From Cryptosporangium minutisporangium (GTDB lineage Bacteria > Actinomycetota > Actinomycetes > Mycobacteriales > Cryptosporangiaceae), in contig NZ_BAAAYN010000054.1 of NCBI RefSeq assembly GCF_039536245.1, positions 1-49,316 of the forward strand: a stretch of 49,316 nucleotides of DNA. The letters are read 5' to 3'. Positions 16,926 to 36,231 of the stretch are shown in pieces. The first letter of the stretch is position 1. Every line of letters begins with the position of its first letter. The translations under genes were made by a program, and so were the position numbers. Below the pieces are notes generated by a model, which was not told the DNA's origin, did no database searches, and saw only the letters and a list, made by a program, of their open reading frames with translations.

Positions 16926-16941
16926 TTTCGTACCAACCAAA
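16926..16941 (+). promoter_or_regulatory. Dyad TTTCGT-N4-ACCAAA upstream of XRE gene 1
   Basis: TTTCGTACCAACCAAA, an imperfect 6-4-6 dyad (TTTNGT-N4-ACNAAA), 62 bases upstream of the start codon. A near copy stands at the same distance before the second XRE gene. A TACGAT -10-like box follows at 16956-16961. It is a candidate binding site for the XRE proteins. Confidence 0.55.
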
Positions 16942-17003
16942 TGAGCGATCAGCTATACGATGCCCGTGGTGCAGGCCGAATCTGGCGCAGGAGGCGACCA
17001 TCC

Positions 17004-17867
17004 ATGCCGCGAACGAGTCCTACCGTGCGCCGTCGTCGCCTGGGACAGGAACTGCGGGCGCTGCGCGAGGGCAAGGGCCTGACGGTCGATCAGGTCGCCA
17101 AGGAGCTGGACTGGTCCCCGTCCAAGGTGAGCCGGATCGAGACGACCGGTATCAAGGTGGGAACCGTCGATCTCCGCGCGTTGCTGGACGTCTACGGCGT
17201 CACGGACGAGGAGCGCCGCCACGGGATGTTGGAGCTCGGGCGCGAGTCCCGGGAGACCGCGTGGTGGATGAAACTGCAAGACCGCACTCCGGTCGGCAGC
17301 TTCCACGGCTTCGTCGGGTTCGAGGCCGAGGCTCGCCAAATTCTCGCCTACGAAATCTCGATCGTTCCGGGCCTGCTCCAAACGGAGGCCTACGCGCGCG
17401 CGATCATGCGCGCGCTCTACATGAAGGACGCGAATCTCGAGACCGCGATCAAGCTCCGCATGACACGGCAGGAGCTCCTGGTCCGGGGCGACGATCCGGT
17501 GAAGTACACGGCGATCATCGACGAGGCGGCGCTGCGACGACCGGCCGGCGGCGCACGGCGGAAACAGGTGATGCGCGAACAGATCGAGAAGCTGCTCGAG
17601 CTGTCCGATCGATCGAACGTCGCGATCCGGGTCCTGCCGTTCGCGAATGGTCTGCACCCGGGAATGAACGGGGCGTTCACGATCCTGGAACTTCCGCACC
17701 CTGACGACCCCGACGTCGTCTATGTCGAAGCGGGGTTGGCCGGCGTCCTGCTCAGCGACGGGGAGAGCGTGCGCTACTACAACCGGGTCTTCGACGGCGT
17801 ACAGCAGGAGGCGCTCGGGCGGGACGCGTCGGAGACGTTCTTGCGCGAGGTGCTCGCGAGCTACTGA
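17004..17867 (+). CDS. XRE-family regulator with DUF5753 domain (copy 1)
   Basis: A 287-residue helix-turn-helix regulator. The XRE domain is at residues 11-70: LGQELRALREGKGLTVDQVAKELDWSPSKVSRIETTGIKVGTVDLRALLDVYGV. The DUF5753 domain follows from about residue 100 with FVGFEAEARQILAYEISIVPGLLQTEAYARA and ends with LLSDGESVRYYNRVFDGVQQEAL. Such proteins form a large actinobacterial family, some members of which (WhiJ, Scr1) affect development and antibiotic production together with small DUF397 partners. The ATG at 17004 follows GGAGG. A close paralogue lies 94 bases downstream, on the same strand. Confidence 0.94.
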   Translation: MPRTSPTVRRRRLGQELRALREGKGLTVDQVAKELDWSPSKVSRIETTGIKVGTVDLRALLDVYGVTDEERRHGMLELGRESRETAWWMKLQDRTPVGSFHGFVGFEAEARQILAYEISIVPGLLQTEAYARAIMRALYMKDANLETAIKLRMTRQELLVRGDDPVKYTAIIDEAALRRPAGGARRKQVMREQIEKLLELSDRSNVAIRVLPFANGLHPGMNGAFTILELPHPDDPDVVYVEAGLAGVLLSDGESVRYYNRVFDGVQQEALGRDASETFLREVLASY

Positions 17868-17888
17868 CAGGTCGGTACAGCTAGCGGC

Positions 17889-17904
17889 TTTCGTACCTAC
17901 TAAA
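17889..17904 (+). promoter_or_regulatory. Dyad TTTCGT-N4-ACTAAA upstream of XRE gene 2
   Basis: TTTCGTACCTACTAAA matches the element before copy 1 at 14 of 16 positions and lies 57 bases before the ATG. A TACCAT -10-like box follows at 17917-17922. The shared sequence in otherwise diverged upstream DNA points to a conserved operator or promoter. Confidence 0.55.
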
Positions 17905-17961
17905 CGCGGCTGCGAGTACCATTTCCAGTGAGTGGGGATTGTCGCAGCGCAGGAGGCCGCA

Positions 17962-18888
17962 ATGGCACGCACGAGCCCGACGGTCCGGCGCCGTCGACTG
18001 GGGCAAGAACTCCGCTCCCTCCGCGAGATGAACGGCATGACGGCAGAGCAGGTCGCCAAGGAGCTGGACTGGTCGCCGTCCAAGGTCAGCCGCATCGAGA
18101 CCACCGCGATCAAGGTGGGAACCGTCGCGCCGCGCCTTGTCGACGACGCCGTAGACGTCGAGCAGGGAACCGTCGATCTCCGTGCCCTGCTCGACGTCTA
18201 CGGCGTCGTCGACAAGGCGCGGCGCGACGGTCTGCTGGAGTTGGGCCGGGAGTCCCGGGAGACCGCGTGGTGGATGCGGGTGCAGGACCGCACCCCGGTC
18301 CGGGGGTTCAAGGACTTCATCGGGTTCGAGGCGGAGGCCCGGCGCATCCGGACCTACGAGCCGTCGATCGTGCCCGGCCTGCTGCAGACCGAGGACTACG
18401 CGCGGGCGATGCTGCGCGTCATGCGGACCGCGGATGTCGACCTCGACGAGGCCGTCAAGCAGCGCTTGGAGCGCCAGCAGATCCTGGTCCGGTCGGATGA
18501 CCCGGTGTTCTACACGGCGCTCATCGACGAGGCGGCGCTGCGCCGGCCGATCGGGGGCAAGATCCGCGTGACCGTGATGCGTGACCAGATCGACAAGCTC
18601 CTCGAGCTGTCCGACGTGGAGAACATCGAGATCCTGGTCGTGCCGTTCGAAGCCGGTGGCCACCCCGGGATGGGTGGCGCGTTCACCGTGCTGGACCTGC
18701 CGCATCCCGATGATCCGAACATCGTCTACGTCGAGGCGATCACCGACGCGATGCTGCTCAGCGACGACAAGAGCGTGCGGTACTACAACGACGTACTCGA
18801 CGGCGTGCGCAGCGAGGCGTGGGGGTTCGACCGCTCTGCCGAGTTCCTGCGCGCGCTCCGGGACGAGTACGCCGCGAAGGTGCGCTGA
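17962..18888 (+). CDS. XRE-family regulator with DUF5753 domain (copy 2) with 16-residue insertion
   Basis: A 308-residue paralogue of the gene just upstream. The HTH (LGQELRSLREMNGMTAEQVAKELDWSPSKVSRIETT) and DUF5753 (FIGFEAEARRIRTYEPSIVPGLLQTEDYARA to LLSDDKSVRYYND) are intact. After KVGTV it carries 16 extra residues (APRLVDDAVDVEQGTV) before DLRALLDVYGV. These come from an in-frame 48-bp insertion that is the inverted copy of the next 47 bp, flanked by the direct repeat GGGAACCGTCG. The insertion falls at the end of the HTH domain, between it and the following helix, so folding or dimerisation might change. RBS AGGAGG precedes the ATG by five bases. Confidence 0.93.
   Translation: MARTSPTVRRRRLGQELRSLREMNGMTAEQVAKELDWSPSKVSRIETTAIKVGTVAPRLVDDAVDVEQGTVDLRALLDVYGVVDKARRDGLLELGRESRETAWWMRVQDRTPVRGFKDFIGFEAEARRIRTYEPSIVPGLLQTEDYARAMLRVMRTADVDLDEAVKQRLERQQILVRSDDPVFYTALIDEAALRRPIGGKIRVTVMRDQIDKLLELSDVENIEILVVPFEAGGHPGMGGAFTVLDLPHPDDPNIVYVEAITDAMLLSDDKSVRYYNDVLDGVRSEAWGFDRSAEFLRALRDEYAAKVR
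18121..18231 (+). repeat. 47-bp perfect inverted repeat inside XRE gene 2
   Basis: 18121-18167 is the exact reverse complement of 18185-18231, with a 17-base spacer. The left arm is absent from the paralogous gene, so the left arm is the insertion. An 11-bp direct repeat (GGGAACCGTCG at 18117-18127 and 18165-18175) marks the joints and defines a 48-bp insert. Confidence 0.95.
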
Positions 18889-19751
18889 GTCGCTGATCTG
18901 TGCCGACCTCACCGGTTCGGATGTATTGCCGACGCTACGCGGGTGGCACTCGGCACGGGCACGCAGCGCTGTGGGCCCTGGGTGGCGCAATGTGCGCTGC
19001 GCCGTGGGCTCGGGTGAGTCGAGTCTCCGTGCGGCAAGGGCGCGCCGGGTAGCCCCTAGACACTTCTGTGTCATCGTTGCCCACAGTGAACGGGGCGCGC
19101 GTGCAGGAGGGAAAGCTCACGGATGGTCGGCGACGAAATCGTAAGGCCTCGCGAGCAGGCCGATCTGGCGTGAAACCGCCGCTGACCGGTACATCTGTAT
19201 CACGCGTCGCGCGCTGGACTGTTCAGCAAACCGTGCTACTTGCGCCCCCGCATCCCCGGTTCGGCCAAGAAAGCCTAACTGAGTGTCGTCATGTGCGCTT
19301 GTCAACAAGCAGTGAGCAAGCTACGTTGTGCAATATGCTTTCCTCGTCGAGGGCGTACTCGCGGAGGGCAGAGGCGCGGGATCCGGCGCGTCCCTGCCCC
19401 GCCACGCGTGTGGCGCGACGTTCTCAGTGCTTCGGATGCAGGTCGGGATCTGTGGCGTGACCAGCCACCGTCCGACGCGGCTCCGTCGAACTCCCCAACC
19501 GGGACGCTCGCGGATCGCCCTCGTTCCGGAGGTGGGGTTCAGAGGTCGCGGGCACGGGCCTCGCGCTCAACCCGCCTCTGGATTCGTCTTACCGCGATGT
19601 AGCGCTTTGGGCGGACTGCTGCTCCGTTGAGCGGTGCCGGAGTCGAAATCATTCGCTCGAATGGTGTGTCATCTCTGCTGCGGTCCGTATGGGTCTGTGC
19701 GGGCCCCGTGTTTCCTGTTTCTCGAGAATTCTGACGAAGGGTGTAACGCAA
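18889..19751. other. Gene-poor gap after XRE gene 2
   Basis: 863 bases with no supportable gene. Several open frames of 60-130 codons exist but show no family features, many Cys/Arg/Ser residues and no good start site. A DUF397 gene is normally found right after an XRE-DUF5753 gene, but here the first lies at 19752, so this may be decayed DNA. Confidence 0.4.
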
Positions 19752-19943
19752 ATGTCCATGACACAAGCTGCGGGACCATGGCGGAAGGCCACGGCGAGCG
19801 GCATCGGGAACTGCGTTGAAGTTCGCAATCGTGCTGGTTGGGTTGATATCCGGGACAGCAAGCGCCCTGGTGACCCATTCCTCAGTCTCCCGCCGGCCGC
19901 ATTCGCTAGCTGGATCGACTCGCTAAAGAGTCCGCGCCACTAA
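19752..19943 (+). CDS. DUF397 family protein (copy 1)
   Basis: A 63-residue small protein of the DUF397 family, usually the partner of XRE-DUF5753 regulators. Conserved features: WRKATASGIGNCVEVRNRAG at residues 9-28, then WVDIRDSKRPGDPFLSLPPAAFASWI, in which the G-N-C-V-E-V motif, the D-S/T-K box and the final W/F-x-x-I/F are diagnostic. The GAAGGG site precedes the ATG at 19752. In Streptomyces such pairs act in developmental or antibiotic regulation; the molecular role of DUF397 is not settled. It stands 864 bases from the nearest XRE gene, which is unusual. Confidence 0.92.
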   Translation: MSMTQAAGPWRKATASGIGNCVEVRNRAGWVDIRDSKRPGDPFLSLPPAAFASWIDSLKSPRH

Positions 19944-20250
19944 GCGGGCGCTCCAGTCGTGTGGCCGGGGCGGTGATGGTCCGTGCGTCCGCGTGAAGGG
20001 CACTTCCGCTACTCCGCCTCGGCCTTCAGTGGTATTGCTGCAGTCAACGGCGTCGACGGACGCTCTGATCAACTCGAAGTGGAGCGGGCTCGCTGCTCGG
20101 CCAGCTGGTAGCCCTCACTTCGGTCCCCGAGCCCGACCGCATAGGTGCCTTCCCGCCTACTGTGGCCGGGCTCCCTCGTGTTCGATCCGGCTGCGGCGCG
20201 ATTTGTGTGCTGTGACGTGGGCGGCGTCCGAATCGAGAAGGATAGAGGGA

Positions 20251-20340
20251 ATGTGCGTTAATGCCTCCCTCCCCGACCCTCCGATATGCATACTGAAGAG
20301 TGACCCAGGGCGTGGCTACTACACGGCTGACAATCACTGA
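20251..20340 (+). CDS. Possible 29-residue small ORF
   Basis: A short frame, ATG at 20251 to TGA at 20340, with AAGGA eight bases upstream. The peptide starts MCVNASLPDPP and ends RGYYTADNH with two Cys. It has no known family. It lies in a gene-poor gap between two DUF397 genes, so it may be meaningless. Confidence 0.2.
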   Translation: MCVNASLPDPPICILKSDPGRGYYTADNH

Positions 20341-20580
20341 TCACCCACCGTGAGTACGCAGAAACGGTCGGGAGAAGGGAGTGGCCGGTGGGAATTGTGC
20401 AGTGTCTGGGGGCGGGCAAGTGCGACCGCGTACTGCGGTCGTGGGGAAGAAATGGGGCATTCTGAGGGGTGTCTCCACCGGATGGCCGACAACAGCTGTC
20501 AGGCCTGCGGCCGCAGTGGAGACATCCGCGGAACGTAGACGGGTCGCTCGCCGCTGCGCGACGGCCGGTGCGCATGCTGC

Positions 20581-20603
20581 CTGCGCATGACGAGGATGCA
20601 CAG
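20581..20603 (+). repeat. 23-bp element, copy A
   Basis: Differs at two positions from 21062-21084, which is the apex of the terminator after the second DUF397 gene. Both have the form CTGCGCA-loop-TGCGCAG. Copy A carries one mismatch in the stem and no extended arms. It may be a decayed terminator from a duplicated DUF397 unit. Confidence 0.5.
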
Positions 20604-20806
20604 GGCTTCCGGGCTGAGTCCCGGACCGGCCGCCGGTGGTCGGGAACCTGACCGCTCGCGGTGGAGGCGCGCACCGGTGACTGCGCCTCGGAATTCCAGC
20701 GATCGAACGATCGCCTGCGGCTCGGCGGCGGGCCCGGCCGTGCATGGCCTCCAGGCACCGTCGCGGCCGAGTCTGGTTCCGGTTCAAACGAAAGGTGATT
20801 CGTCGA

Positions 20807-21007
20807 ATGACCGCAAAGCCGAAGTGGCACAAGAGTACGTACAGCGCTATCGGAAACTGCGTAGAGGTCACGACCGCACCGATCAATGGCCTAGTGGGAC
20901 TTCGTGACACCAAGGATCGAGGGGTCGAATTAGCGTTTCCGACCCACTCCTGGAAATTGTTCTTGGACGGCGCGAAGCAAGGCGAATTCTCGCCGGAAGC
21001 TCCCTGA
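20807..21007 (+). CDS. DUF397 family protein (copy 2)
   Basis: A 66-residue DUF397 protein, with KWHKSTYSAIGNCVEVTTA at residues 5-23, GLVGLRDTKDRGVELAFPTHSWKLFL and a tail GAKQGEFSPEAP. The motif W-x-K-S/T-x-Y-S-x-x-G-N-C-V-E-V is canonical. The AAAGGTGA site precedes the ATG. A very strong terminator follows at 21051-21095. It is on the same strand as the XRE genes and probably belongs to the same regulatory family set, though 1.9 kb away from them. Confidence 0.93.
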   Translation: MTAKPKWHKSTYSAIGNCVEVTTAPINGLVGLRDTKDRGVELAFPTHSWKLFLDGAKQGEFSPEAP

Positions 21008-36023: not shown

Positions 36024-36231
36024 CCGCTGTTGAAGCGCCGCCAGGCGCGGAGTAGTTGCTCGAACCTGGAGCCCGCCCAGAGCGGCGCTGGCTGTCGAGC
36101 GCGAGGCCGCCGCGAACCACTGATCCGCCGTTGTCAGGCGCCGCGCGAGGCAGCTTCCGCTGGGCTCGACCTCGCGGTGGTCTCAATGCCTCGCGCTCGC
36201 CTGTCAGCGTCGTTCTGGGCGGGCCGTGCGC

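Follow-up and report, generated by a model that had tools for sequence, protein, structure and literature searches.

Known Template-Switch and Fold-Back Mutations

A single template switch can create perfect stems (Monttinen and Loytynoja 2022, PMC8794818). In the cases described there, one event yields a reverse-complement copy and with it a perfect stem, four switch points are sufficient to explain both junctions, and the locus described here resembles these cases in each respect. The examples discussed there are RNA genes (microRNA, rRNA), whereas the present insertion lies in frame in a protein-coding gene of a bacterium. Intramolecular template switches have also been measured in E. coli reporters (PMC7202029). 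The quasipalindrome mutations described there likewise involve intramolecular fold-back synthesis during bacterial replication and result in better pairing of the arms. In those reporters, however, a 4-bp frameshift next to a pre-existing 18-bp quasipalindrome is removed, whereas here an almost armless site gained an arm of 47 bp.

Related events have been described in eukaryotes. Template switching in coding genes of yeast changes the protein sequence, as it does here, but the changes outlined in the abstract are arm homogenisation and spacer inversion with up to five neighbouring replacements, in contrast to the insertion of 16 residues at this locus (Abraham and Hazkani-Covo 2021, PMC8604942). 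Duplications at yeast breaks are, like the present one, local inverted copies primed by microhomology, most of them of ~5-34 bp; in those cases one end is captured by end joining, and the abstract names no flanking direct repeat (PMC11724301). Long perfect inverted repeats within coding genes are also reported in the abstract on the mitochondrial genomes of Nematomorpha (PMC6649704), where both arms encode conserved regions, whereas at this locus one of the arms is newly inserted and not conserved. As for the host gene, it resembles the Streptomyces XRE-DUF397 pairs (PMC10364602) in being an XRE regulator followed by DUF397 genes. The abstract of that work names no such insertion, and the arrangement differs in that two tandem XRE genes precede two DUF397 genes.

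In the part of the literature that was covered, no title or opening of an abstract reports a bacterial gene with an in-frame insertion made by template switching, which is not a claim that none is in print. The insertion reported here is a further, clear case of a type of mutation that is already known and, on present evidence, no new system. It is an unusually clean snapshot of the mutational mechanism, as the arms are intact, the switch points can be read and the short form is retained in relatives.

The Host Regulator Gene and Its Neighbourhood

The window, i.e., the whole stretch of 49,316 nucleotides that was analysed, is contig C54 of the 9.23-Mb draft genome of Cryptosporangium minutisporangium (G000), which is divided into 152 contigs. 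The genes that concern the insertion are as follows.

17004..17867, + strand: tandem paralogue without the insert, HTH_31 (69.7 bits) and DUF5753 (open reading frame, Pfam, alignment)
17962..18888, + strand: XRE-family regulator gene with the insertion, 308 aa, HTH_31 and DUF5753 (open reading frame, Pfam)
19689..19943, + strand: downstream DUF397 gene (PF04149, 48.1 bits)
20744..21007, + strand: second downstream DUF397 gene (PF04149, 52.2 bits)

The start codon of the insertion-carrying regulator is placed at 17962, where an AGGAGG-like site and the alignment of homologues suggest it to be. The Pfam scan, which started from an upstream GTG at 17932, gave 48.2 bits for PF13560 (cut-off 27) and 183.1 bits for PF19054 (cut-off 23.4). 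The HTH_31 score is thus 48.2 bits in the insertion-carrying gene as opposed to 69.7 in the paralogue. DUF397 genes are the usual partners of XRE-DUF5753 genes. With its N-terminal HTH_31/XRE domain, its DUF5753 domain and the adjoining DUF397 genes, the gene belongs to the XRE-DUF5753 family, and presumably it encodes a WhiJ/Scr1-like regulator. Upstream of the XRE pair lie two genes on the opposite strand, which we take to be bioD and bioB. The upstream neighbour (the presumed bioD) is present in all three congeners (G001, G002 and G003), and DUF397 matches occur within the fetched flanks in two of them (G002 and G003).

The number of regulator genes varies across the genus. The window holds two tandem XRE-DUF5753 genes and then two DUF397 genes (16941-21007). 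The fetched flanks of G002 and G003 each hold one XRE gene and two DUF397 matches, and G001 has two XRE genes with no DUF397 match within the fetched flanks. These counts point to a lineage-specific duplication of the XRE gene. In an eight-row gene tree it is the paralogue, not the insertion-carrying gene, that groups with the G002 and G003 genes (support 94/95, slightly under the tool's mark for strong, with several forks of the tree unresolved). This grouping suggests that the insertion-carrying gene is probably the extra copy, in which change would be more easily tolerated.

Structure of the Inverted Repeat and Identity of the New Arm

The inverted repeat lies in frame within the regulator gene and consists of the following elements.

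18117..18127, + strand: direct repeat GGGAACCGTCG, copy 1; its last 7 nt (18121-18127) form an inverted microhomology with 18225-18231
18121..18167, + strand: left arm, the new inverted copy; exact reverse complement of 18185-18231, with the insert missing from the other 43 of 44 homologous open reading frames
18165..18175, + strand: direct repeat GGGAACCGTCG, copy 2; contains the GGG that provides the 3-nt microhomology of the other switch point
18168..18184, + strand: spacer of 17 nt, the loop of the hairpin (repeat search, RNA and DNA folding)
18185..18231, + strand: right arm, native, the template; aligns with the paralogue and G002 DNA and with homologous proteins

A first-pass annotation of this DNA had described a 47-bp exact inverted repeat with a spacer of 17, a direct repeat with copies 48 apart, and a paralogue at 17004 that lacks the segment while the frame is kept. 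An exact-repeat search of the window returned the same pair of arms, the two copies of GGGAACCGTCG were found in the sequence at that distance, and the short paralogue and the open frame were confirmed by open reading frame, protein and DNA alignments. The perfect pairing ends at a mismatch in both directions, outward and inward; if one mismatch is permitted, the arms grow to 50 nt and the loop shrinks to 11 nt. The arms and loop total 111 bp. The arms form the longest exact inverted repeat of the window, with the next ones at 20 and 18 bp, and in 20 first-order Markov simulations the longest exact inverted repeat was 12-17 bp as against the 47 observed. The direct repeat makes the ends of the insert ambiguous by 11 bp. 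The extra residues can therefore be written in two ways, as APRLVDDAVDVEQGTV or GTVAPRLVDDAVDVEQ, which correspond to residues 56-71 or 53-68 of the 308-aa protein.

Alignment of the homologous proteins found the 16 residues in only one of 44 distinct open reading frames, the gene at 17962. This set was taken from 67 loci and comprises stop-to-stop frames of at least 200 aa that carry a P[GA]xxQ[TL]-type motif and are distinct on their last 200 residues, with frames that do not carry such a motif left out. The insert is missing from the paralogue, from the congeners G001, G002 and G003, in which the compared genes have the same upstream neighbour as the window locus, and from more distant Streptomyces and Actinomadura proteins. 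In two of the 44 frames (L023 and L026), a single additional residue is present where the insert lies. The idea that the hairpin is an old conserved feature was rejected on this count.

The right arm aligns with the paralogue and with G002 DNA and is native sequence. As the insert is missing from the homologues, it follows that the downstream arm is the native one and the upstream arm the new copy. When the 9.23-Mb genome was searched for a 41-nt stretch of the arm, up to 3 mismatches being allowed, the two arms were the only hits, which indicates a local inverted copy as opposed to a mobile repeat. The insert, which the relatives examined do not share, is an exact inverted copy of nearby native sequence, the pattern by which a template switch would be recognised.

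Junctions and the Proposed Fold-Back Mechanism

Short matches are present at both switch points. At the outer junction the match is of 7 nt, as the native ACCGTCG is the reverse complement of CGACGGT, the end of the native arm. The match at the inner junction is of 3 nt, between GGG and the complement of the native CCC. At random junctions in the window, a match of at least 7 nt arises with a frequency of 2.0e-4 and one of at least 3 nt with a frequency of 0.025 (400,000 draws), and the 3-nt match is weak when taken alone. The insert is very probably the result of one recent fold-back template-switch mutation. The first-pass annotation had proposed template switching or fold-back synthesis, and this origin is well supported by the junction matches, the native right arm and the homologues. 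The reading is based on one genome, in a draft assembly of 152 contigs.

The proposed course of events would begin as the minus strand is copied leftwards, immediately after its 3′ end has copied the GGG with which GGGAACCGTCG begins. This end would fold back on itself, so that its CCC pairs with the GGG that is complementary to the native CCC at 18185-18187. The folded end would then copy ~40 nt of its own new strand, finishing in CGACGGT. Upon release, the CGACGGT end would re-anneal by 7 nt to the ACCGTCG of the original template and replication would resume. These steps would lengthen the sequence by 48 bp and leave behind an inverted copy together with a direct repeat of 11 bp. Had the end switched instead to the opposite parental strand, the product would be identical and indistinguishable from that of fold-back on the nascent strand.

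A Second Insertion in the Same Genome

A repeat scan of the genome revealed a further structure of this kind on another contig.

G000:C17:115995-116209 (locus L095:15995-16209): second fold-back insertion, 74-bp perfect arms, spacer of 67 bp

The layout of this insertion is native arm, spacer, inverted arm and spacer repeated, and the event in the window has the same layout on the opposite strand. The two copies of the spacer differ at a cluster of 4 bases. The C17 insertion is missing from all three congeners and lies between two genes, the stop and start codons of which overlap in the congeners (TGATG in G001 and G002; ATGA in G003).

The scan covered 1,649,316 bases (~18% of the genome) and sought exact inverted repeats whose arms measure 25 bp or more and lie no more than 2 kb apart. 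Three were found: the 47-bp repeat of the window, the 74-bp repeat of C17 and a 28-bp palindrome with no spacer at C17:163146. The same search found none in 400,000 bases of G001 and none in 400,000 bases of G002; in 100,000 bases of G003, for which the scan was a mismatch-tolerant one only, the best score was 21. As the window had been picked for its repeat, the unbiased count of spacer-bearing repeats is 1 in 1.6 Mb of G000 versus 0 in 0.9 Mb of the congeners, and a raised rate is not shown by such a count.

Loss of SbcCD was considered as a possible cause, and sbcC and sbcD were compared in the four genomes. A match to sbcD above the cut-off is present in all four, whereas sbcC falls below the family cut-off in all four and also in 13 of 14 control genomes. 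Only in G000 is sbcC divided between two contigs (G000:C72:1-988 and G000:C127:1-1389). Both pieces align colinearly with G001 as far as the contig ends, with ~950 bp unaccounted for, and for this reason the split resembles a gap in the assembly of GC-rich coding DNA. No trace of an insertion sequence was noticed there. It has been considered whether this species is unusually prone to make, or not to remove, long fold-back insertions, which would be a source of in-frame, codon-complementary segments in GC-rich genomes; in this instance a duplicated regulator would have had its DNA-binding domain rewired at one stroke. This proposal is doubtful.

Alternative Explanations and Age of the Event

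A double-strand break offers another route to an inverted copy. A resected end could fold back at a short match, copy its own strand and be joined by microhomology or by Ku end joining. Ku is encoded in all four genomes of the genus, G000 included, and the abstract on yeast describes short templated inverted duplications made by fold-back in which the other end is captured by end joining (PMC11724301). At this locus, however, the sequence beside the inverted copy is present on both sides of it (11 bp here, ~70 bp in the C17 case). A two-ended break would need a long staggered end to leave such a repeat, whereas a return to the same template would give it directly, and break repair is rather unlikely as the source of the insert. 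An artefact of assembly, amplification or library preparation, in a strain that really has the short form, would also mimic a fold-back. Chimaeras of strand-displacement amplification are often inverted, and the assembly is a draft of 152 contigs with some N bases. Chimaeric by-products of that amplification are described in the abstract of PMC9484634. Against this stand the return to the original template through microhomology and the kept frame, as well as the size of the structure, as 111 bp would fit in one ordinary short read. Furthermore, the repeat copies of the C17 insertion differ by the 4-base cluster and that insertion includes intergenic DNA missing in the congeners, a structure that a simple assembler error would hardly produce. 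An artefact is accordingly judged decidedly unlikely.

The remaining explanations concern function and mobility. The hairpin could be a selected element that controls expression, through an RNA stem or an RNase III site, or that toggles between the 11-bp repeats. The fold is very stable (z -11.4 for RNA and -13.4 for DNA) and the direct repeats would permit a precise loss of 48 bp. Nonetheless, it is shared by no relative examined, so that there is no conservation in favour of selection, and recency alone explains the 47 perfect pairs. The first-pass annotation had raised a pressure to keep both arms, which found no support, as there is a single insert-bearing genome and the identity of the arms only bounds the divergence at ~3%. 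It had also raised toggling by excision, for which no support was obtained even though the 11-bp repeat would allow it in principle; the copies sit at the base of the stem and in the loop, not either side of the stem, and are not brought together by the hairpin. Selection on the hairpin is held to be very improbable. Some palindromic insertions into bacterial genes are mobile repeats, and the genus does possess a dispersed hairpin repeat family. An insertion sequence remnant, a REP/MITE-like element or an attC-like recombination site is barely conceivable here, since the arm is found at one genomic place only, copies adjacent native codons and is unlike the dispersed hairpin family. No copy at an unrelated site was found in the genome search with 3 mismatches allowed, no Rfam family was matched in the window at the gathering threshold, and a mobile element was rejected on both counts.

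A fold-back template switch, the preferred reading, may also be dated to some extent. As none of the 47 pairs differs, the rule of three limits the divergence accumulated after the event to ~3% per site, and the best congener matches have 66-68% protein identity. The event is recent relative to the congeners and not necessarily very recent. Of the first-pass description of a very recent event, the recency with respect to the congeners stood, whereas the ~3% bound does not require the event to be very recent.

Reading Frame and Predicted Folds

The codons of the left arm are the exact reverse complements of those of the right arm. In six genes of the window, the antisense strand read in codon register is free of stops in 2267 of 2299 overlapping stretches of 16 codons, and the other two antisense registers are stop-free in 1419 and 1837 of the 2299. 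The gene stayed open and gained 16 residues because the copy was antisense in codon register and its length was a multiple of three. The 48-bp length keeps the frame, and a multiple of three has a 1-in-3 chance; thus, the kept frame is only weak evidence for selection on the frame and proves nothing on function. Since stops almost never arise in an inverted local copy that keeps codon register, the event suggests a route by which GC-rich bacteria may gain whole protein segments at once.

The insert follows the recognition helix (helix 3) and precedes helix 4. This agrees with the first-pass statement that 16 in-frame residues lie between the HTH and the next helix. AlphaFold2 models of the insertion-carrying protein and the paralogue, built on nine sequences, are of modest quality (mean pLDDT 64.8 and 66.7), and 101-138 and 232-251 are also below 50 in the 64.8 model. 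Both proteins share helices 8-23, 28-35 and 39-47. The insert region of the long form, 51-66, is modelled at pLDDT <50, and the next helix begins at 64, whereas the position corresponding to the paralogue helix 54-63 would be 70-79.

Folding of 18090-18260 as RNA gives -133.9 kcal/mol, and as single-stranded DNA -85.3. RNase III would be expected to accept an mRNA stem of 47 perfect pairs as a substrate. The likely present effect would be a DNA-binding domain that is still folded but altered, together with an mRNA carrying a 47-bp hairpin, in an extra copy of the gene.

Other Hairpins in the Genus

At 36071-36224 the window holds a copy of a dispersed hairpin repeat with imperfect arms of ~37 bp and the core GCGGCGCTGGCAGTCGAGCGCGAG. 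With up to 3 mismatches, this core has 53 matches in G000, 6 in G001, 26 in G002 and 4 in G003, and a reversed control of the core has 1, 0, 2 and 1, respectively. The hairpin, which like the rest of the window has no Rfam match at the gathering threshold, may represent a REP- or MITE-like family.

Perfect palindromes with no spacer and with arms of 22-28 bp were seen at G000:C17:163146-163201, G000:C44:132973-133016 and G002:C1:267517-267564. These are probably intergenic terminators that are unusually long and perfect.
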